From a virus: a stretch of 22,593 nucleotides of DNA. A program made the translations under genes and the position numbers. The stretch spans positions 1 to 22,593 of the IMG/VR virus record IMGVR_UViG_3300034404_000005; one strand, given 5' to 3'. Numbering within the stretch: position 1 is the first letter of the stretch; every line of letters begins with the position of its first letter. The notes under the pieces are model-generated. The model had not been told where the DNA came from, made no database searches, and was given only the letters and a program-made list of their open reading frames with translations. Of the stretch, positions 2,759 to 22,593 are shown piece after piece.

Positions 2759-4540
2759 ATGATTGTTTTAAATGACTATACCAATACCCCATTTACTGTT
2801 GAAGAAGGTGAGTTAGAAAATTTTGCGGTTAGTATATACAATGAATTGAAAAGTTTGAATGAGCCTCGTCATGCGAAAGTCCGAGACTACATTAGAGAAT
2901 TAAACGGAAACTCAGCAATTCCAGAACCAGAACTGGATTGGCAAAGCAATATCAAGTCAAGCTTATTTTTTCAAAAACTTGCTTTTGCTTATTACTACTT
3001 TCGCTCTCTTGTAGATAGAGCAAGTAAAAACTTGCTCACCTTTTACGCATCAGACCCATACAGCAAAATGCCGTCCATTCTGAAAAAATGCTACGACCTT
3101 GCGATTTATAAATCTGATTTCTTTCAAGAAATAGGGCTTACTTTGTTTTATGGTCTTTTGTCTGGACACCTTGCTTTGCTTATAGACACAGATTTTGAAA
3201 TAGACCAATTTGGCGAAGTTGAAAAGAAGCTTGTAGTGAAGGCTTTGCACCCTCTTGATTTTTATGTCTCAAACGATGGTTCCTTTTATGCGTATGATGT
3301 GTATGTCCCATTTGAGAAAGCCTACAGACTTCAAAAGTTCTGGATGATGAAACCAGAGAAACTTGAGCCGTATAACATATCTACATCAAAAGAAACAGTA
3401 GAATATTTAGTGAAAAGTTCTCGCAAGCGGGCTTTTGTGAAGCTTACTTACATCTATGGACGGTATGTCAATAACGATGTAGTATCTACACCAATCAAGA
3501 TAACTCTTTTGAACGATACCAAGCTTGTTGATGTAGAACAAATCAATCATGCGGACAATCTGATGCCAATTGTTCATACTTATTTCTATGCTTCTGATTT
3601 TCAGCTTAGCTACGCAGACCTGATATGGGATTACTACAAAGAAGACACAAGACTTTTGCGGTCTTTTATTGATAGAGTTTTGCTTAGCACAGCGACAGCT
3701 TTTGAGATTTACGTGGATGCTATTAACCAAGAAGATAAAGAAGAGCTTGAGATAGCGCCTTATATGGTGTTTAAAACAACTTCTCCTGACCAAGCGGTTA
3801 GAACCTTTCAACTCGCAAGTATTGACCCGAATGCTTTACCGTTCAGACAAATGATACTAATGGAAGTGCAAAATGTAAGTGCGATGTCTGAGATACTTGA
3901 AGGCAAACCAACTTCAAAAGGCAGACCGACGGCAAAGGAAATACTCATTAAATCTCAACTGAACGCACAGTATGTAAATACTCTCATCAACAGAATTGAA
4001 GAAGAGTTTATTGCAAAAACGGTTCGTAAGATGCTTGCGGTGTTTATTCAGACATTTATAGATGAAATACCAGCAATACTTACTCCAGAAGAGGCTCAAG
4101 AGTTTAACATGTTTGTTAATAAAGCAATTATAGAGGACAAGCCTAAATATTACTATCTTGTCAAAAACATTTACAAAGGTATTACGATTAGAGTTGAAGG
4201 TTTAAGCGGTGTTGTGAGGCAGAAAGAAGAGCTTGAAAGCTTGTTATCAGTGCTTGAGTTATTTAGCAATCTTGGTGCTTTACCATTCCTCAATGTGCCT
4301 ATCATAGTGAAGAGAATAGCTGATATTATGCAACTACCTTCTGAGCTTGTGCGGATACCTACACCAGAAGAAATGCAAGCGATGGCACAAGCGCAAAAAG
4401 TTAAAGAAGAGAACATTAAACAGTTTATCCAGCAAATTCTTTCTGATGAAGAAATGTTGCAAAAGATTGCCCCTAAGTCTAAAGACCTTTTAACATACTT
4501 AAACCTTGCAATAGGAGGTGATAATAATGCAGTTGAATGA
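2759..4540 (+). CDS. Portal protein
   Basis: A 593-residue protein, the usual size for podovirus-type portals. The N-terminal region (about 1-110) is helical with an aromatic stretch (FAYYYFRSLVDRASKNLL), followed by a core with the LFYGLLSGHLALLI helix-strand, a mixed alpha/beta clip/stem-like region (about 150-380), and long C-terminal helices (about 385-590) with a Gln/Met/Glu-rich segment resembling a portal barrel or crown. Portals form the twelve-membered ring at one capsid vertex through which terminase pumps DNA. The call rests on length, fold-like pattern, and the absence of any other portal candidate near the terminase, capsid and adaptor genes. No good Shine-Dalgarno precedes the ATG, unlike most genes here. 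It lies about 4.6 kb upstream of terminase, further than usual. Confidence 0.75.
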   Translation: MIVLNDYTNTPFTVEEGELENFAVSIYNELKSLNEPRHAKVRDYIRELNGNSAIPEPELDWQSNIKSSLFFQKLAFAYYYFRSLVDRASKNLLTFYASDPYSKMPSILKKCYDLAIYKSDFFQEIGLTLFYGLLSGHLALLIDTDFEIDQFGEVEKKLVVKALHPLDFYVSNDGSFYAYDVYVPFEKAYRLQKFWMMKPEKLEPYNISTSKETVEYLVKSSRKRAFVKLTYIYGRYVNNDVVSTPIKITLLNDTKLVDVEQINHADNLMPIVHTYFYASDFQLSYADLIWDYYKEDTRLLRSFIDRVLLSTATAFEIYVDAINQEDKEELEIAPYMVFKTTSPDQAVRTFQLASIDPNALPFRQMILMEVQNVSAMSEILEGKPTSKGRPTAKEILIKSQLNAQYVNTLINRIEEEFIAKTVRKMLAVFIQTFIDEIPAILTPEEAQEFNMFVNKAIIEDKPKYYYLVKNIYKGITIRVEGLSGVVRQKEELESLLSVLELFSNLGALPFLNVPIIVKRIADIMQLPSELVRIPTPEEMQAMAQAQKVKEENIKQFIQQILSDEEMLQKIAPKSKDLLTYLNLAIGGDNNAVE

Positions 4541-4835
4541 TTATCTGCTTACAAGTGTTGTGGTGATTAATGTTGTATTTTTGTTTGCTTTTGTTTTTGT
4601 GGTGTTTAAGTTGATAAAACTTCAGGCAAAACTGGAGCTGATGGAAACAAAGTTTGAAATCTTGCACGAGAGCTTACAAGATTTGATAGAGCGTATGCAG
4701 AAGCTTGACGATAAGATTGACATAATTAAGGAGATAGAAAAGCTTGTAGAACGTATTCAAGTTAAGCGTGAGGAGGATAAAGATAAAGTTAAGCAGTTTT
4801 TGATTAGGAAGTTCAGCCATGATATGGCAGGATGA
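4527..4835 (+). CDS. Small membrane-anchored coiled-coil protein
   Basis: About 102 residues, starting at ATG 4527 rather than the in-frame GTG at 4518, because AGGAGG at 4513-4518 is 8 bases before the ATG and overlaps the GTG. Residues 5-30 form one strongly hydrophobic membrane helix. The remainder is a highly charged continuous helix with heptad Leu/Ile spacing, probably a coiled coil. It overlaps the portal gene by 14 bases. There is no catalytic motif and I do not recognise a family. The same plan (N-terminal membrane helix, then coil) recurs in the gene at 20657. Possible roles are membrane docking during assembly, a component delivered to the host membrane on infection, or exclusion of other phages; none is shown by sequence. 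Confidence 0.8.
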   Translation: MQLNDYLLTSVVVINVVFLFAFVFVVFKLIKLQAKLELMETKFEILHESLQDLIERMQKLDDKIDIIKEIEKLVERIQVKREEDKDKVKQFLIRKFSHDMAG

Positions 4836-5247
4836 TGCGATAACTTTTCAACAGGTGATGGAGAAAGAAACGAAGTTTATAAAGTTTGTTTTTCTGGATG
4901 GAGTGTATATAGGCAAAAAGCTTGGAAATGAATTATTCTGCGATTTTCATCCAACGATTGAGACAGCAAAACTTTTGAAGCAAGCCATAAAGGTTTATAA
5001 ACCAATTGTAGTGCCAGACCCTTATAAACCTACAAGAGAAGGCTTGCTAACCAACACAGGGCAATACATCTACTTCAGACAGTCAATTGTTTATTACGAT
5101 GGTATTATCAGACCAGTTTTCTTTAGCAAGATGTATTCTTCTGATGTGTTTGATGTGCAACCTTTTTCACTGCTTGCAAGAGCTTGGAACGGCGAGTTTG
5201 ATTTACAAACAGCGCAGAAAAAATATTTGGAGGCAATGACGCCATGA
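4819..5247 (+). CDS. Unknown protein before the ATP-grasp gene
   Basis: A 142-residue soluble protein of unrecognised family. AGGAAG at 4806-4811 lies 7 bases before the ATG at 4819, which overlaps the previous gene by 17 bases. Secondary structure looks mixed, with many aromatic residues (YYDGIIRPVFFSKMY) and a PDPYKPTREG loop. The stop overlaps the start of the ATP-grasp gene (ATGA), so the two are likely translated together and might act together. Position between portal and a putative ligase suggests either a minor structural protein or an accessory or substrate protein for the ligase; both are guesses. Confidence 0.75.
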   Translation: MIWQDDAITFQQVMEKETKFIKFVFLDGVYIGKKLGNELFCDFHPTIETAKLLKQAIKVYKPIVVPDPYKPTREGLLTNTGQYIYFRQSIVYYDGIIRPVFFSKMYSSDVFDVQPFSLLARAWNGEFDLQTAQKKYLEAMTP

Positions 5248-6455
5248 GGGTGCTTGTGTTTGGGACAGGAATTGAATTTAGCCACGTGCTTGGTTTAGCT
5301 ACTGCGGGACATGAGGTGTATTATTACACCGATTACATCTCTCCATATCCGAGCTTTGATGATTTTGCCACAGGGTTTGGTTTTGAAAACATCAAAAAAG
5401 TGCATAATTTCTTTGCCTACATAGACAAAGTAGATAAGATTGTCGGCTTTGATGTGTATGGTGGAGATTTGTTTTCTTTCTTAGCGAACAAAGGATATAA
5501 AACTTTCGGTGGTGGGATAGCTACGGAGCTTGAGTTAGACAGAAAGTTTCTTAAAGTTATGTTGAAATCAGCTGGTGTTCCTGCTCCAGAATACAAAATT
5601 GTAAGAGGTTTTAAAAATATCAAACCACCTTGTGTAGTGAAACTTTCTATCTTTAGAGGTTCAGCAGAAACTTTCTTTATCAACAACGAAGCAGAAAAAC
5701 GCAACTACGAAGCAAAACTGAGAAAAGAGTTCGGAGAATTTCTTGACCAGATGGAGTTTATCGTAGAAGAACAGCTTGAGCTTGATGATAGATATGTTGA
5801 AGCTGGAATAGATGCAGTATATGACTATGAACAAGGTGGTTTTCTCTTTCCAATGCTCTGCGGAGTAGAGTATAAAAAAGGTGTATATATCGGTAGAGTA
5901 TGCAATAGCTTGTCTGAGTTGCCAAAACCTTTGCAAGAAACACTGATAAAGCTTGACCCTATTTTTAAAAAGTTTAAGTATAAAGGTTTTATAAGCACAG
6001 AAGAGTTTATCAATACACGAGGCACAGACCACTACTTCCTTGATATAACAGTTAGGTCTCCTTACCCGCTTGGACTTGGTTATAGATACGCAATGATAAA
6101 TTTTGCAGATGTAGTGCTGAACGGAGCAAGACCTGTTTTCAGAGATAAGTTTTATGTAGCTGTGCCTATGAAGATTGAAGAGGCAAAAGAATTCTTTGTG
6201 TATGTTGATACACCCGACCCAGAAAAAGATACAAGATATAACTTTGAAGCTTTGATGAAAGTCAAAGGTGAGTATTACATACCAAAAGGCGAAGGTGTAG
6301 AAGCTTGTGTGTGTGAGTGTTTCTCTTCTCTTGACGAGGTTAAAATAATAAAAACTATGGAACAGTTAGTGAAGAAGGTTTCGGCAGTATCAATGCAGGA
6401 TGATTTACCTAACTTACCTCTTGCTTTGCGAGAGGTGAAAAAACTATGGAGATAA
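5244..6455 (+). CDS. ATP-grasp ligase-like protein related in pattern to glycinamide ribonucleotide synthetase
   Basis: A 403-residue protein with the domain order of ATP-grasp carboxylate-amine ligases. Residues 1-90 resemble the pre-ATP-grasp nucleotide-like fold (MRVLVFGTGIE, AGHEVYYYTD, GFDVYGGDLF). Residues 89-118 hold GGGIATELELDR and SAGVPAPEY, close in pattern to the PurD segment where a lid helix precedes the ATP-grasp domain. Lys133 (CVVKLS) is a probable ATP ligand, FIVEEQLEL (172-180) the adenine-binding strand, and GFISTEEF with YFLDITVR (248-271) the metal-binding strands. The usual E-x-N metal motif reads D-I-T (267-269), so chemistry may differ from PurD. A CVCEC cluster occurs at 355-359. 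Known family members join a carboxylate to an amine using ATP through an acyl-phosphate; substrate here is unknown. GGAGG at 5229-5233 is 10 bases before the ATG. Its place among virion genes is unusual. Confidence 0.75.
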   Translation: MRVLVFGTGIEFSHVLGLATAGHEVYYYTDYISPYPSFDDFATGFGFENIKKVHNFFAYIDKVDKIVGFDVYGGDLFSFLANKGYKTFGGGIATELELDRKFLKVMLKSAGVPAPEYKIVRGFKNIKPPCVVKLSIFRGSAETFFINNEAEKRNYEAKLRKEFGEFLDQMEFIVEEQLELDDRYVEAGIDAVYDYEQGGFLFPMLCGVEYKKGVYIGRVCNSLSELPKPLQETLIKLDPIFKKFKYKGFISTEEFINTRGTDHYFLDITVRSPYPLGLGYRYAMINFADVVLNGARPVFRDKFYVAVPMKIEEAKEFFVYVDTPDPEKDTRYNFEALMKVKGEYYIPKGEGVEACVCECFSSLDEVKIIKTMEQLVKKVSAVSMQDDLPNLPLALREVKKLWR

Positions 6456-6823
6456 TGAAATACGCAAGACTTGAGGAGTTGTTAAAAGAGTACGAGCAAG
6501 TGCAGTCTATCAATCAGAAAAGTCTTGATATTATGTCTATTGAAGTTCAGTTTCAAGGATATAGAAAACTGCTTGAAGAAATAGAACGGGAAAAACGCAA
6601 TCTTGAAAAGCTTGAAAGACAAGCTGACGTGCTTGGTATAAAGAACCCAGTTAGAACGAAAAACGAAATTGCAATGGTTAAAGCGAGATTACTTGAGCTT
6701 GAAAAAGCGATTTACGATGCGTTTAAATCATTTCGTGCTAAAGAAGAAGCAACACCAACTACAGCTATACAGATTAACATTATGACCTCTTCTCCTGATG
6801 CACCAATTGTGGAGGAAGAGTGA
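6446..6823 (+). CDS. Coiled-coil protein, possible small terminase subunit
   Basis: A 125-residue protein with GAGGTG at 6432-6437, 8 bases before the ATG, overlapping the ATP-grasp gene by 10 bases. Residues 5-60 and 75-100 are charged helices with heptad spacing, joined by a loop (QADVLGIKNPVRT). The tail has a short beta-like stretch (TAIQINIM), then DAPIVEEE. An oligomerising coiled core with a short beta-rich, acidic C-terminus resembles some small terminase subunits, and none is otherwise seen in the window. However, no N-terminal helix-turn-helix is evident and large terminase is 2.4 kb away. It could equally be a scaffold-like or tail accessory protein. Confidence 0.7.
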   Translation: MEIMKYARLEELLKEYEQVQSINQKSLDIMSIEVQFQGYRKLLEEIEREKRNLEKLERQADVLGIKNPVRTKNEIAMVKARLLELEKAIYDAFKSFRAKEEATPTTAIQINIMTSSPDAPIVEEE

Positions 6824-8818: not shown

Positions 8819-9180
8819 GTGTAGCTTATGCGCAAGCTGTTGCCACAAATATACTCCAAAACAGTTATATTGGTTTAATAAGACAAGATGGTTCCGAATG
8901 TCCGATAGATAGAGTAGCTTTTGGTTCTATTGTTATAAACGCAACTTCTGACCCAGATTATATTGTGCTTTCAAACCTAAACGATATTACATTTCCTATA
9001 GCCTCTGTTGATGTAGCACCAACGAGTAATCCAGTTGTTCAAGTAGCTTTGTATGATGCAAGCAGTGGTGGAAACCTATTAGCTAAAGCGGATGTAGTAG
9101 CTAAACCCTACCTTGCAGGAGACCAGTTTAAAATACCAACTGGTTTTTTGCAGTTTAAGATACAAAAAGTTGTCGGATGA
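8803..9180 (+). CDS. Small phage structural protein of the DITFP/DAxSGGNLL type
   Basis: A 125-residue beta-rich protein with GGAGGA at 8791-8796, 6 bases before the ATG. It carries a pattern seen in many tailed-phage proteins: LNDITFP, then VVQVALYDASSGGNLLAKA, then AGDQFKIPTGFLQFKI. In those proteins the strand, the D-A-x-S-G-G-N-L-L turn and the final A-G-D-x-F-K-I-P-x-G strand pair form a compact beta domain, usually annotated as a tail or head-associated minor structural protein. The call for the family is from memory of the motif. The stop overlaps the start of large terminase (ATGA), so it is co-translated with it. Confidence 0.7.
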   Translation: MATTISVAYAQAVATNILQNSYIGLIRQDGSECPIDRVAFGSIVINATSDPDYIVLSNLNDITFPIASVDVAPTSNPVVQVALYDASSGGNLLAKADVVAKPYLAGDQFKIPTGFLQFKIQKVVG

Positions 9181-10637
9181 AAGATATAGTTCTTACACCT
9201 AAACAAGAAGAAATAATCAAAGCGTTTTTTGAAGGAGACAGACTCTGGGTAATGTCTGTTGGAGGTAAAGGTTCTGCAAAGACTACAGCTACTTTGTTTA
9301 TTCTTTTGCGTTTGATGTTTGACCGAAAATATGAACGGAGTAAGATACTCGTAGCACGGGAAAGTCTTAGAGACTTGAAAAACACGTTGATTGACGAGTT
9401 TATCAGACTTTGCACAGAGAAAGGCATCAAGCTTGGTATAGACTACGATGAAAACAAGCAACTTCAGAGGATTTATTCGTATGTAAATCAGTCCGAGATA
9501 TTTTACCTAAGCTTGTCCGATAAAAATGAGCAATACAAAACAGTCCGAAGCTACGAGTTTAATGTTGTGATTATTGATGAGTTAGACAGACTTAGTCAGA
9601 AAGCTTTTGTTGAAGCGTCTGAAAGGCTCAGGTATCCTCACAAGTTTATTCGTGGTCTTGTAAATTTGAACCCAGTCCCAGAAACACATTGGATTTATAA
9701 AGAGTTTGTAGAGGAAAGCGGAGCCTTTACTCCTTTTACACAAATTATTAAATCAAGCGTGTATGACAACTTTGTGTATGTTAAGTTGTCAAAAGACTTT
9801 CTTGCTACGGCGGATACTTACATTTATGATAACAAAGTCTTTTACGTTATTAACAACAGGCGGTATGAGATAGTTTCAGAGAAAGATGGAGAAGTGATAG
9901 CTAAACGGTATAATCCACCCCACAGCTACCTTGCTCAAATGGAGCATAGACCTTATTACTACAGAAGAGTTATGCTTTATGGTGAGTGGGGCAATGCTTA
10001 TTTTGAAGGCAACGGTATTTACACAGAATACTTCTCTGAAGAGAACATTTACTCCGATTGGAACCCAAATGCAACAATGCCTTTCTATTACAACTTCTAT
10101 GCAGGAATAGACTTTGGTTTGAGAAGACCAGCATATGTTCTGCTTGTTGAAGATGAGCTTGGTAGATTGATTGTGATGGATGAGCTACTTGGTGAGAATG
10201 AACCTTTGGTTATGTTTATAGAGAATGTGGCGAAGCGGTTGAGAAACAATTTCGGTATTACCATTCACGATGTAGAGTGGTGGGGCGATATAGCTGGAAG
10301 ACAAAGAGACCAGTATGAAGGTTTGTCTTTACTTAAGAAAATTCAAGATGAATTCAGGATAAGTATTAAAACCATGCAAGTTCCACAACTTCAGAGCATA
10401 GAAGCGATACGAGATATGCTTATTACTGACATTCAAGGTAAAAAATGGTTGCGTGTTTATCAAAACTGTCATATAACTATGAACGGTCTTTTAGGCGAGT
10501 TTCAAGTTGATGAGAGAGGTAAATTACTAAAAGACGGCTACTACGAACATATTCATGATGCATTGCGTTATGTTTGCTACCCACTTTACAGAAAAGCAAA
10601 AACCTCAAAACTTGTAATAAAAACACCAAAATATTGA
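9177..10637 (+). CDS. terL: Terminase large subunit (packaging ATPase and nuclease)
   Basis: A 486-residue protein with both functional domains of TerL. The ATPase has Walker A GGKGSAKT (29-36), Walker B VVIIDE (130-135) with Glu135 as catalytic acid, and the coupling-type NLNP segment (163-166). The RNase H-like nuclease has Asp312 in AGIDFG, Asp371 in WWGD, and Asp461 in HIHDALRY, three acids expected to bind metal. LYGEWG (267-272), followed by YFEGNGIY, is the usual linker before the nuclease domain. The enzyme docks on the portal, pumps DNA into the prohead and cuts concatemers. Between YDN (196-198) and HSYLAQ (249-254) there is roughly 45 residues of extra beta-hairpin-like sequence. 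The start overlaps the preceding stop. Confidence 0.95.
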   Translation: MKDIVLTPKQEEIIKAFFEGDRLWVMSVGGKGSAKTTATLFILLRLMFDRKYERSKILVARESLRDLKNTLIDEFIRLCTEKGIKLGIDYDENKQLQRIYSYVNQSEIFYLSLSDKNEQYKTVRSYEFNVVIIDELDRLSQKAFVEASERLRYPHKFIRGLVNLNPVPETHWIYKEFVEESGAFTPFTQIIKSSVYDNFVYVKLSKDFLATADTYIYDNKVFYVINNRRYEIVSEKDGEVIAKRYNPPHSYLAQMEHRPYYYRRVMLYGEWGNAYFEGNGIYTEYFSEENIYSDWNPNATMPFYYNFYAGIDFGLRRPAYVLLVEDELGRLIVMDELLGENEPLVMFIENVAKRLRNNFGITIHDVEWWGDIAGRQRDQYEGLSLLKKIQDEFRISIKTMQVPQLQSIEAIRDMLITDIQGKKWLRVYQNCHITMNGLLGEFQVDERGKLLKDGYYEHIHDALRYVCYPLYRKAKTSKLVIKTPKY

Positions 10638-11316: not shown

Positions 11317-12402
11317 ATGGCGATATTTTGGCAACCAACTTTAACACCTATGAGCCAATTAGGTTTTAGTGATGAGGAGTTTTTTTCTTACACCACTGAG
11401 GTAGGAACCTATAGGCTTAGCAGAGCGTCTATAAGCAAGGAGATAATGAAGAGAGCAATGCCCGAGCTGACGTTCAGGAAGTTCGTTTCCAAATGGACTG
11501 ACTTTAGAGCGGGAACAGACAGATACTTTGAAATGTGGAAGAAAACTACTGCACCGTATAGCCAATATTGGCAACCTGTAGGAGAATTTGACCCTCTGCC
11601 TACTGTAATGCCTGCTTACAAAAGATATTCAGTAAGCGTAGAAGAAAGAGGTGCTCAGATACCTTGGACAGAAAGAGCACAAATCTTTTCTGCAATAGAC
11701 ATAGAAAGCGAAATCAGGAAGCACCTTGAAGAAGTAGTTGTTGGTTCTATAGAAAGAGACTTAATAAAGAATGCGTTCATGTATCTTGACGTGCTCGGTT
11801 TATATACCACAAGTGGTCTTGAACTGCAGGTAGGAGTATCTCTTAATCAAACAAAAACCTTTGCTGAAGAAAGCGGTTTTCCTATCACAATCAACCAATA
11901 CTCCATACCCGCAGGAACAACTTTTGCACCACTAACACTTAGTGCAATAAGACAATTTGTGATGGAATTGGCAAGACAAAACTGTCCAAGCTATGACGGA
12001 AGAGGTTTTGGTAGGTATGTAATAATCATGAATGCACAAGCAAAGAACAGGATATATTCAGACCCAGAGTTTCAAACGATATTCTCAAGGTTGCAAGACG
12101 CAAGAGCATTCAAAGAAGGCTACATCGGAACTTACTACGGACAAGAGGTTGTTGAGGATAACGGTAGATGGATAGAGTTCGTATTTGGTGAAGTCAATCC
12201 AAGCTTGCTTGACAAGTCAATTTGTATCTTCCTTGGAAGAGATGCTATCAGAGAAGCTATTGTAAAACCTGAAGAATTTATGCACCAAAAAGGAGACTTC
12301 AACAGGTTCCGTGCGATAGGTGTGAATACTTATAGAGGCGAGCAACCTACTTGGTTCGCAAAAGAAGGTCAAGCAGTAGGTGGTATTTTGATAGCAGGTT
12401 AA
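11317..12402 (+). CDS. Major capsid protein (HK97-fold type)
   Basis: A 361-residue protein with a very strong ribosome binding site (AAAGGAGGTG at 11302-11311) 5 bases before the ATG, as expected for the most abundant virion protein. The sequence shows an N-terminal arm, the long helix region (IESEIRKHLEEVVVGSIERDLIKNA type) and a C-terminal portion with IIMNAQAKNRIYSDPEFQ, GYIGTYYGQEVVEDN and FLGRDAIREAIVKP. That order (NAQAKNRI-like helix, then G-x-I-G-x-Y-x-G-x-x-V strand, then a strand giving the capsid P-domain) is characteristic of N4/P22-like major capsid proteins with the HK97 fold. Position after the scaffold and before the adaptor agrees. An alternative is another shell protein, but no competitor exists nearby. 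Confidence 0.88.
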   Translation: MAIFWQPTLTPMSQLGFSDEEFFSYTTEVGTYRLSRASISKEIMKRAMPELTFRKFVSKWTDFRAGTDRYFEMWKKTTAPYSQYWQPVGEFDPLPTVMPAYKRYSVSVEERGAQIPWTERAQIFSAIDIESEIRKHLEEVVVGSIERDLIKNAFMYLDVLGLYTTSGLELQVGVSLNQTKTFAEESGFPITINQYSIPAGTTFAPLTLSAIRQFVMELARQNCPSYDGRGFGRYVIIMNAQAKNRIYSDPEFQTIFSRLQDARAFKEGYIGTYYGQEVVEDNGRWIEFVFGEVNPSLLDKSICIFLGRDAIREAIVKPEEFMHQKGDFNRFRAIGVNTYRGEQPTWFAKEGQAVGGILIAG

Positions 12403-14150: not shown

Positions 14151-15704
14151 ATGGCTAACATCGTCGTTTTACCTACTATTGAAATTCCTAACCCGTTTGG
14201 AGTTTTGGCTGAGGTTTTAGGAAAAGAAGTAATACCTTTTATCACAGAACTTTCAAGAAGTAAAGAACAGATAGCTTTGTTTTCAGATAAAGAACTAACT
14301 GACCACATACCTGTCCTCAAACGATTTGCTTCAGATTTACTTACACAAGACGGTAAGATAGACTGGAATAAAGTTGAAGAGTATGCTAAGTCTGAAGACC
14401 CGTTTAAACAAGAAGTAGCAAGTTATCTAAGCAACGTTAGAAAAATGAGAGAAGAGTTTGCAAATCTCCCTGTTGGAGAAAAGTTGGAAAAACTGAGTTT
14501 TTACGCTACAGCAACTAACCCCAAGATTTTAGAGAAAAGTTTTAAAGTTAAAATCATTACAGAAAAATATAACGAAGCTTTAGACAAAGCTGATATACCT
14601 GAGGAGTTAAAGCTTTTCTTTCGTGCTTATGCTCCAGAACTTGCAGAGAAAATAGCAGAAAGACCAGAACTTTTCAGCTCCTACATAAAGCTTCTTGAGA
14701 ACCTTAGCAAGAGGAAACAAGGAAATACTCAGCAAGGAGGTGGGACTGGTAGCTGGAGGTTGAGTTTAGATGGACAAAACAAAAAGCAGTTTAGTATTAG
14801 GTTAGAAGAGCCTCAGCTTACTCCTCCACAAGTTAGCCCTCCGCAAATACCTAAAGTATTAGCACCACAACCAGTTTCTCCGCAAACACCTAAAGTAGTT
14901 AAACAAAAGCCTGTTGTTCAGAGAGGACAAACAGGTAATATTGGTAGAGAAGAACAAGTTAAGCAAAATGATAAAATAAAAACTACCAAAGAACAAAAAC
15001 CACAACAATCTTCTGTAATGACTTTTTGGCGTGATGGTGTGTTGTGGGAAATGAGAAGAGGAAAAGATGGAAAAGTTGAGTATATACCAAGAGAAGTTCC
15101 GCTTATAGAACAAGATATGGACCCGCTTACTACTTCTTTTCTACCAAGCGTGCTTTCTAACGCTGGAAAATTTATTAGCAATGTTTTTGGTAGAGTATCA
15201 AAAACTTTAGGAAGAGGAGCACAAAAAACTGCAGAAAAAGTAGTAGAAAACGTAGCAAAAGAAACCGCAGAAAATACAGCATCTAAGCAAGCTACATCAC
15301 CTGAGGCAGAAACTAAACAAACTGTCCTTACACCTATCAAAAAGTTGGAAAGCCTTGTTAAAGAAATACCTAATGAAGCAAAGAATGACCCAAAAATCAG
15401 ACGAAGGCTTGTAGAAATTACAAGAGACTTAAAGAAGATTTCACGTGAAGCTCCATTTAGAGATGTGTCCGATGATTTGAGAGTTTTGGATGCAAAAGTA
15501 GATGAGCTTAAAGCTTTTCTTAAAAAACAGTATGGAGAAACTAAAACAACAACAGAAAAACCAACACCAAAAACTAAGAAGCAATCTAAAGAAAAACCAA
15601 CACCAAAAACTAAGAAGCAATCTAAAGAAAAACCAACACCAAAAACTAAGAAGCAATCTAAAGAAAAACCAACACCAAAAACTAAGAAGCAATCTAACAA
15701 ATAA
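14151..15704 (+). CDS. Probable internal/ejection protein with C-terminal Lys-rich repeats
   Basis: A 517-residue protein with AGGAGG at 14139-14144, 6 bases before the ATG. The first 190 residues form a helical domain (VLPTIEIPNPFGVLAEVLGKE, then charged helices). Residues 195-290 are a Pro/Gln-rich linker (QVSPPQIPKVLAPQPVSPQ). A short FWRDGVLWEMRRGKDGKVEYIPRE hairpin is followed by helices and, at the end, four copies of EKPTPKTKKQSK. The repeat tail is strongly basic and disordered, suggesting DNA binding inside the capsid. With genes on both sides it is assigned to the internal/ejection protein group of a podovirus. I recognise no family; the role is inferred. Confidence 0.65.
   Translation: MANIVVLPTIEIPNPFGVLAEVLGKEVIPFITELSRSKEQIALFSDKELTDHIPVLKRFASDLLTQDGKIDWNKVEEYAKSEDPFKQEVASYLSNVRKMREEFANLPVGEKLEKLSFYATATNPKILEKSFKVKIITEKYNEALDKADIPEELKLFFRAYAPELAEKIAERPELFSSYIKLLENLSKRKQGNTQQGGGTGSWRLSLDGQNKKQFSIRLEEPQLTPPQVSPPQIPKVLAPQPVSPQTPKVVKQKPVVQRGQTGNIGREEQVKQNDKIKTTKEQKPQQSSVMTFWRDGVLWEMRRGKDGKVEYIPREVPLIEQDMDPLTTSFLPSVLSNAGKFISNVFGRVSKTLGRGAQKTAEKVVENVAKETAENTASKQATSPEAETKQTVLTPIKKLESLVKEIPNEAKNDPKIRRRLVEITRDLKKISREAPFRDVSDDLRVLDAKVDELKAFLKKQYGETKTTTEKPTPKTKKQSKEKPTPKTKKQSKEKPTPKTKKQSKEKPTPKTKKQSNK
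15555..15698 (+). repeat. Four tandem 36-bp repeats, in frame
   Basis: Copies at 15555-15590, 15591-15626, 15627-15662 and 15663-15698. The first three look base-for-base identical; the fourth differs only at its last base, changing the final Lys codon to Asn. Each encodes EKPTPKTKKQSK. No spacers separate them, so this is a coding tandem repeat, not a CRISPR array. Confidence 0.95.
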
Positions 15705-21225: not shown

Positions 21226-21499
21226 GCTTCTTCACTCCTTTTGGGTCTACATCAAGCACTTTTGCTATAATTTTGTAAGGTATGTTGAGTTCTCTTGCTC
21301 TATGAACATACTCCACTTTCTGTTCCTTAGGTAGTTGTCTAAGTCTTTTTCTAACTACTCTGCTTTGTGCTGGAGTTCTGATTATCTTAAGACGCCAAAG
21401 TGTGCTATATACTTTGTGGTGAGATAACTTAGTAATGTGTGCTATTTCATCTACGCTTAAGTAAAATTCAGTATAAAGCTTTGCTATAAGTTCTTCCAT
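21197..21499 (-). CDS. Small helix-turn-helix DNA-binding protein
   Basis: A 100-residue basic protein starting at ATG 21499, with GGAGG (21511-21507) 7 bases upstream, and overlapping the methyltransferase gene by 16 bases. Two helix-turn-helix-like units are visible: residues 14-39 (LSVDEIAHITKLSHHKVYST, ending WRLKI) and residues 73-96 (IPYKIIAKVLDVDPKGVKKL). A basic Arg/Lys/Gln linker (VVRKRLRQLPKEQK) joins them. It could be a transcription regulator of the early/late switch, or a DNA-binding partner for the nuclease that it overlaps. No specific family recognised; no operator could be assigned. Confidence 0.75.
   Translation of the reverse strand: MEELIAKLYTEFYLSVDEIAHITKLSHHKVYSTLWRLKIIRTPAQSRVVRKRLRQLPKEQKVEYVHRARELNIPYKIIAKVLDVDPKGVKKLERSLSSRI
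21235..21240 (-). promoter_or_regulatory. Ribosome binding site for the TTG start of the nuclease
   Basis: On the minus strand AAGGAG lies 9 bases before TTG 21225. It supports the non-ATG start of the VRR-NUC-type gene, inside the end of the helix-turn-helix gene. Confidence 0.6.
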
Positions 21500-22344
21500 A
21501 GCTTATCCTCCTGTTTAGTTATATCATAATTTGCCCACAAAATTTCAACTGTTTTTGGTCTTTCTTGTCTTTTGTTTTGTTTCGTGATAACATAAGAATG
21601 TTTTGTAGCTGGGATTTCAAGTTTATAAAAGTCCTTTAATTCTTCATTATAAAGAGGGTTTGCATATCCAGATAAAAGCCACTTTGCTTTTGTTTGTTTG
21701 AGAATATTAAGCAGGTCTTTATGGTCTTGTTCTGTAAAGTCGGGGTCATAGTAATGTTCCGCACTATAATAAGGCGGGTCTAAGTAGATAAAAACGTTGT
21801 CTCTGTCAATTACTTTATTGAGTAATTGACGAAAATCTAAACATTCTATATGAACGTTCTTTAATCTGTTGTGTATTAGGTGCAAAGTTTCTAAACTATT
21901 AAAAAACTGTTTGGTCTCTGATTTTGTAAAAGAATAAGCCCAACCACCAGAATTATGTTTGCCACCAAAACAAGTATAAAACAAATAGTAAGTTTTCACA
22001 GCCAAATCCACATCTCCTAATTCTTGTATTTCAGTTTTACGATAATCTTCTAAAAACTGTTTCCTTAAAGCACGAGAATAGACAAGCCATTTTACTTTTT
22101 CGTAAAACTCCTCAAACTTAAAAGCTACAACATAAAATAAGTTAGCAATTCGCTTGTCGTAATCATTATATATCTCTATCTTAGATGGTGATTTATTCAA
22201 AAGCACTTTAGCTGAACCGCCAAACGGTTCAACATAAATTTCATGCTTTGGTATTAGCTTCAAAATCACATCAAGCATGTAAAACTTACCTCCTATGTAT
22301 GGAAAAAAGCTTAACTTACCCTTTCTCCCAAACTTCGCTGACAT
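21484..22344 (-). CDS. D12-class (Dam-like) adenine-N6 DNA methyltransferase
   Basis: A 286-residue protein starting at ATG 22344, 6 bases after GGAGG (22355-22351); the in-frame TTG at 22362 precedes that site and is rejected. Motifs follow the D12 order: FPYIGGK (14-20) binding the S-adenosylmethionine region, YVEPFGGSAKV (37-47) as the F-x-G-x-x motif, IYNDYD (58-63) as the acidic ribose-binding motif, a long recognition segment, and LDPPYY (188-193) as the catalytic DPPY. It transfers a methyl group to adenine in a short DNA site that cannot be read from sequence. The usual length of D12 enzymes is 260-300 residues, so it appears intact. It overlaps polA by 29 bases. It may protect viral DNA from host restriction or mark it for a viral nuclease. 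Confidence 0.93.
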   Translation of the reverse strand: MSAKFGRKGKLSFFPYIGGKFYMLDVILKLIPKHEIYVEPFGGSAKVLLNKSPSKIEIYNDYDKRIANLFYVVAFKFEEFYEKVKWLVYSRALRKQFLEDYRKTEIQELGDVDLAVKTYYLFYTCFGGKHNSGGWAYSFTKSETKQFFNSLETLHLIHNRLKNVHIECLDFRQLLNKVIDRDNVFIYLDPPYYSAEHYYDPDFTEQDHKDLLNILKQTKAKWLLSGYANPLYNEELKDFYKLEIPATKHSYVITKQNKRQERPKTVEILWANYDITKQEDKLWKNL

Positions 22345-22593
22345 TTGGCACCTCCACTTCAAGTTTTATTTTAGCAACTTTATTACCAAACTCTTCTGCT
22401 TTCTCAACACACCAGTCCCACGCCTCTTCCATCTTTTCCTTGATTAGCTTAGCTAAGTCTTGTGCATCCTTGCTGTCTGCTTCTACTACTATCTCGTCAT
22501 GCACAAGATTAACTATCTTCAAGCTCGGTTCCTCCTGCTTCAGCAATATTATAGCTTTTTTGAAGAGTTCTGCACCACTGCCTTGTATTTGAT
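22316..22593 (-). CDS. polA: Family A DNA polymerase, C-terminal part (5' part outside window)
   Basis: The leftward frame is open to the right edge, so only the last 91 residues of a longer protein are visible. They start IQGSGAELFKKAIILL, matching the family A helix that follows the O-helix region (usual form N-x-x-I-Q-G-T-A-A-D). They continue with NLVHDEIVVEA, the palm motif C with the His-Asp-Glu triad where Asp binds catalytic metal. The closing residues give a normal polymerase C-terminus. The protein would copy viral DNA; a 3'-5' exonuclease domain cannot be judged here. Gly-Ser-Gly replaces the usual Gly-Thr-Ala. Its position at the head of the visible operon with methyltransferase and nuclease indicates a viral replication module. 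Confidence 0.93.
   Translation of the reverse strand, partial: QIQGSGAELFKKAIILLKQEEPSLKIVNLVHDEIVVEADSKDAQDLAKLIKEKMEEAWDWCVEKAEEFGNKVAKIKLEVEVPNVSEVWEKG

Follow-up and report, generated by a model that had tools for sequence, protein, structure and literature searches.

A PurD-fold ATP-grasp ligase of an unnamed phage family in the packaging and structural gene block of a pyrovirus-like genome

The gene located between portal and terminase of a pyrovirus-like genome encodes an ATP-grasp ligase with the fold of PurD, and as far as computation allows both fold and superfamily are settled. The window analysed here is a complete IMG/VR virus record of 22,593 bases, the relevant features of which are listed in Table 1. 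Tentatively, and at somewhat less than an even chance, we read the protein as a catalytically competent carboxylate-amine ligase that acts late and whose product, a small-amine amide, would be used within or on the particle during its maturation. The fold, the conserved catalytic residues, the family, purifying selection, the position in the structural block and the linkage to a SpeD-like gene in a sister clade were computed; activity, timing and class of product are what we infer.

The gene order of the window is lysin, portal, small genes, terminase, capsid and long internal genes, and on the opposite strand the window closes with the C-terminal part of a family-A DNA polymerase. Gene order and polymerase end seemingly fit the uncultivated viruses of hot-spring Aquificae designated 'Pyrovirus' (PMC7689252), a study whose main text does not mention an ATP-grasp gene. 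Several other observations concern this genome type. By sequence, the overlapping genes at 1028-1577 look like a spanin pair, the first of inner-membrane type and the second a small lipoprotein, and are a possible lysis cassette. From the translation, a tandem repeat at 15440-15700 encodes KEKPTPKTKKQS units at the end of the 14151-15704 gene. A Dam-like adenine methyltransferase gene (21484-22362, minus strand) adjoins the polymerase; its place is held by a different small gene in an Octopus-type contig (L021). Moreover, one end of a pyrovirus contig (L022:1-1750, contig of L006, 40,321 bp) resembles host branched-chain aminotransferase and peptidase genes, suggesting either a chimeric assembly or a provirus that has integrated.

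Table 1. Features of the window that bear on the ligase, with the evidence for each.
Feature	Position	Strand	Evidence
Portal protein (SU10/head-tail-adaptor type)	2759..4540	+	PF23899 2e-6, phrog_332 2e-5
Small gene between portal and 4819 gene	4518..4835	+	N-terminal hydrophobic stretch, read from sequence
142-aa gene overlapping ligase start, pyrovirus-specific partner candidate	4819..5247	+	ORF, conserved neighbourhood
PurD-fold ATP-grasp ligase, 403 aa	5244..6455	+	ORF, profile, AF2, Foldseek, dN/dS
K133, R138-G139, Lys/Arg-Gly, nearly invariant in family	5640..5660	+	Family alignment
E186-x-G-x-D190, E and D invariant	5799..5813	+	Family alignment
Acidic E253, invariant, expected metal ligand (PurD: Gly)	6000..6002	+	Profile, alignment
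D267-I-T-V-R271, counterpart of E-x-N-x-R	6042..6056	+	Profile, alignment
C355-V-C-E-C359, pyrovirus-only, predicted beta-strand	6306..6320	+	AF2 model, alignment
125-aa coiled-coil-like gene overlapping ligase end, pyrovirus-specific	6446..6823	+	ORF, conserved neighbourhood
Large terminase	9177..10637	+	PF04466 7e-14, phrog_3717 8e-15
Major capsid protein	11317..12402	+	PF05065 8e-5, under curated cut-off

The ligase ORF is real and under strong purifying selection. As described in the initial annotation, it is complete with 403 residues and shares an ATGA with the gene before it. It lies on the plus strand; its ATG start and the stop codon of the 4819-5247 gene overlap, and the coiled-coil gene begins inside its 3' end (overlap of ten bases). 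It had also been placed between portal and tail genes. Pfam and PHROG matches support the portal; the downstream genes at 6820 and 7464 are candidate tail genes at most. Homologues with 79-95% identity occur in six IMG/VR contigs, and the contig L081 holds one of 64% identity with the same neighbours; its portal and terminase are 64% and 63% identical to those of the window. In all eight pyrovirus-like contigs that cover the ligase it is kept between portal and terminase/capsid genes, so the absence from close relatives that had been named as counting against the earlier proposal was not found. The shared order is portal, small gene, 4819 gene, ligase, coiled-coil gene, terminase, capsid, whereby the L004 contig ends within the small gene and its portal lies outside its sequence. 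Compared with the window, dN/dS is 0.06-0.08 for the ligase and 0.03-0.07 for the terminase. Searches based on the terminase led to distant phages, and the ligase was not found within the stretches covered.

The fold was assigned with the help of relatives. Alone, the ligase has no match in Pfam; it retrieves PurK from the PDB (3ax6, E 0.01, phmmer) and purD from NCBIfam (E 0.04), and the single-protein searches in Pfam, PHROGs, NCBIfam and PDB went no further than such hints of PurD and PurK. A first AF2 model built from 7 near-identical sequences reached a pLDDT of 43.8. With this model Foldseek gave sub-threshold PDB matches, PylC and PurK being on top, and meaningless matches to viral models. 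The motif DITCRxGSPP of phage proteins served as a pattern for a search of viral contigs and yielded five stretches. The proteins encoded there align with the window ligase over 300+ residues, with E values of 4e-24 and 6e-23 in the pair that was compared, and their alignment led to 55 non-redundant family members, 53 of which make up the family profile and the residue counts given below. This profile matches PurD in the PDB in two colinear stretches (3.3e-11). The AF2 model obtained with 53 relatives has a pLDDT of 94.9 and a pTM of 0.92. Its best PDB match in Foldseek is PurD of Aquifex aeolicus (E 2.7e-18, TM 0.73), followed by PurK, PurT and biotin carboxylases, with ATP-grasp enzymes accounting for 50/50 top matches. 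The initial annotation had called a PurD-like ATP-grasp protein and proposed a structure search as a check. This assignment is not obtainable from one sequence; it is firm with the family profile and the model, and the structure search indeed ranks PurD first.

The catalytic residues are well conserved. E97, R138, E186, D190, G207, E209, E253, R271, P275 and N286 are invariant in 53/53 members, and K133, G139, E142, T143 and D267 are nearly so. The residues by which an ATP-grasp enzyme was judged (K133, E253, D267 and R271) are kept in 52-53 of 53. K133 and R138-G139 presumably belong to the ATP-binding half. At the counterpart of E-x-N-x-R the family follows the rule D-x-[C/T]-x-R; the Asn place is taken by Cys or Thr in 52/53 members and by Asn in 0/53. 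Here the universal Glu253 is expected to supply another acidic metal ligand. This place is acidic in other ATP-grasp enzymes as well, including PurK, PurT and biotin carboxylase.

The earlier interpretation is right in its direction, but two of its reasons fail: the motifs to which the substrate had been linked are located as described and have lost the meaning given to them. D-I-T at 267-269 is no mark of a new substrate, because the whole family shares the D-x-[C/T]-x-R rule, and it was rejected as a substrate signature. CVCEC at 355-359 was likewise discarded as a conserved metal site since it occurs in pyroviruses only and the model places it in a beta-strand; one Cys is absent even from L081. 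R255 and E278 are kept by most other members and missing from the pyrovirus members, which may indicate a different substrate.

The ligase is assigned to an unnamed family separate from PurD, with about 50 members, all of them from uncultivated tailed phages. No family model of Pfam or PHROGs covers the members. With six members as queries none was found in 50,697 records of named phages, and none turned up in two scans of cellular genomes that reached only sequences sharing a short exact motif. The tree groups the pyroviruses into one clade with full support, and the long-branched viruses L085 and L078 stand beside it. A large clade shows the order TerS, TerL, in some phages a Wzy_C-type gene, small gene, ligase, P22-type portal and capsid gene. 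The earlier placement of the ligase among virion genes is upheld: in pyroviruses it is fixed in the virion and packaging gene block, and in unrelated phages its kin adjoin terminase and portal. Elsewhere in the family the gene is often preceded by one for a very long protein, and several to tens of kilobases separate it from the portal; wherever both could be placed, they share a strand. Very long proteins preceding the ligase comprise 1,400-3,200 aa (L067:17-9718, L052:3617-7903, L077:26-9427), and those of L067 and L052 matched no PHROGs family.

Two small genes recur beside the ligase. The first one is located directly upstream in phages with a P22-type portal and is SpeD/AdoMetDC-like (21 loci, including L035:9610-9987); it is found in 19/20 members of one large tree clade. 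Its profile matches the AdoMetDC 2iii of the PDB around the pyruvoyl site (2.6e-5). Ser72 and Cys92, 20 residues apart, are invariant, which marks the proteins as AdoMetDC-like. The position of the AdoMetDC processing His, five residues past the Ser, holds Asp in the majority of members and His in some. In Microcystis phage MaAM05 a homologue carries the annotation AdoMetDC. The second recurrent neighbour is a small protein with an invariant H-E-x-x-E and a later His, found at 16 loci in several clades (e.g. L067:11254-11952, L040:9502-9975, L045:9272-9631) and without a match in the PDB. In one subgroup its C-terminal part weakly matches Erv1/Alr.

In the pyroviruses no SpeD-like gene was found in the stretches covered. 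The 4819 gene, which the initial annotation had put forward as a partner, is kept beside the ligase in pyroviruses, but only there; in the sister clade its place is taken by the SpeD-like gene. Among the family neighbourhoods compared, the 4819 and 6446 genes were found in pyroviruses only, neither shows homology to neighbours in other clades, and the 4819 protein has no match in the PDB. A SpeD role for the 4819 gene was rejected; it has no homology to the SpeD-like gene.

The pairing with the SpeD-like gene, together with the place between terminase and portal in that clade, suggests a late carboxylate-amine ligase that uses a small amine. According to this preferred reading, the ligase would bind ATP and metal ions (Glu253, Asp267) and turn a carboxylate into an acyl phosphate, from which the acyl group would be transferred to an amine. 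The enzyme would probably act late because its gene is located in the packaging and structural block. The product would most likely be the amide of a small amine of polyamine or amino-acid type and may serve the maturing particle, e.g. by neutralising packaged DNA or by tagging a virion protein; small amine and particle role are both suggested by the gene position together with the SpeD pairing in the sister clade. Virion proteins and packaged DNA had been proposed as targets in the initial annotation, and they are putative targets here as well. Phage SpeD homologues assayed by others are ornithine or arginine decarboxylases (PMC9992855, PMC10407285), which supports the preferred reading; neither of the two studies mentions an ATP-grasp neighbour. 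For the pyroviruses such an amine and a particle-serving product are only moderately likely. In the stretches covered they show no SpeD-like gene, and they lack the R255 and E278 that the SpeD-linked clade possesses; their substrate may therefore differ. The large distance between ligase and portal in other clades also speaks against the preferred reading, and the Wzy_C-type gene nearby in some phages would rather suit a role in the envelope.

Such an envelope modification, in which the amide would end up in a compound of the cell wall or surface and help to control lysis or exclude other phages, is doubtful on the whole. At six loci (e.g. L049:8049-9236) a Wzy_C gene of the O-antigen ligase type stands between TerL and ligase, and for the amidoligase/GATase set of phiEco32 an envelope-type role was proposed by others, as cited in PMC10580990. 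However, no Wzy_C-type gene was recognised in pyroviruses, and the SpeD-like and H-E-x-x-E genes are the commoner neighbours.

A more specific version of the preferred reading is somewhat less probable still. Here the SpeD-derived pyruvoyl decarboxylase would supply putrescine or agmatine, and the ligase would couple this amine to a carboxylate of the virion or of a DNA counter-ion; pyroviruses would draw on host amines and, in SpeD's stead, on the 142-aa protein as partner.

It is improbable that the ligase acts on DNA before it is packaged, linking an amine or amino acid to an already modified base. The contact with terminase and portal would agree with DNA hypermodification, as would a thymidylate-kinase-like gene and some methyltransferases in related viruses (PMC7689252), but among the selected neighbours scanned no base-hypermodification gene was recognised beside the ligase in any clade.

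An auxiliary metabolic PurD, i.e. a diverged GAR synthetase that boosts purine supply in infection, is likewise given little weight. PurD provides the nearest solved structures, and the NCBIfam purD model matches 25/53 members weakly (best E 3.9e-9). Yet the window ligase scores 12.7 bits against the purD model TIGR00877 with its curated cut-off of 288. The PurD stretch E-x-N-x-R-x-G-D-P-E is not present: the window reads D-I-T-V-R-S-P-Y-P and most other members D-x-[C/T]-x-R-x-[GP]-S-P-P. Score and replaced signature bear out the earlier view that the protein is not an ordinary PurD orthologue. Moreover, the Gly of PurD is replaced by an invariant Glu253, and the gene is located among packaging and structural genes. 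A purine function was dropped as first choice. Nine window proteins scanned against Pfam included no purine gene. Finally, a non-catalytic structural or assembly protein that retained an old enzyme fold would suit the position among structural genes but is highly improbable, given that the residues expected to hold metal and phosphate vary little or not at all across a very diverse family.

Taken together, the data describe a coherent phage ATP-grasp family that has kept its catalytic machinery, is not covered by Pfam, PHROGs or named phage records, and occurs within or close to packaging and portal genes in several lineages of phages. Enzymes of this class make covalent bonds, and one that is kept among structural genes under a constraint like that of the terminase points to a so far undescribed chemical step during infection or maturation of the particle. 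Because one clade pairs the ligase with a SpeD-like gene, its substrate class can be tested directly with two small proteins.

Among known enzymes PurD (2yw2, Aquifex aeolicus) has the whole-length fold, all domains and the ATP-binding residues in common with the ligase. In contrast, identity is about 16%, and the ligase differs in Glu253, in the replaced R-x-G-D-P-E and in its apparently non-purine context. PurK, PurT and biotin carboxylase share the ATP-grasp fold but rank below PurD in structure and show no orthology at sequence level. The phage SpeD/AdoMetDC homologues resemble the neighbour gene in one clade of the family; in the pyrovirus stretches covered no such gene was found. Amidoligase/GATase/ATP-grasp sets of the phiEco32, LUZ24 and UFV-P2 type are a further case of phage-borne ATP-grasp (PMC3890496, PMC10580990). 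The ATP-grasp gene of UFV-P2 encodes 291 aa and lies in an early block with amidoligase and GATase, whereas the ligase has 403 aa and resides in the structural block without such partners: neither amidoligase (PF12224) nor GATase was found among the scanned neighbours in the window or among representative neighbours in other clades. The R2K (CDC123) ATP-grasp peptide ligases of phages, predicted protein modifiers (PMC4431377), are a divergent clade with a lysine signature of its own, whereas the ligase described here is PurD-like in its fold.
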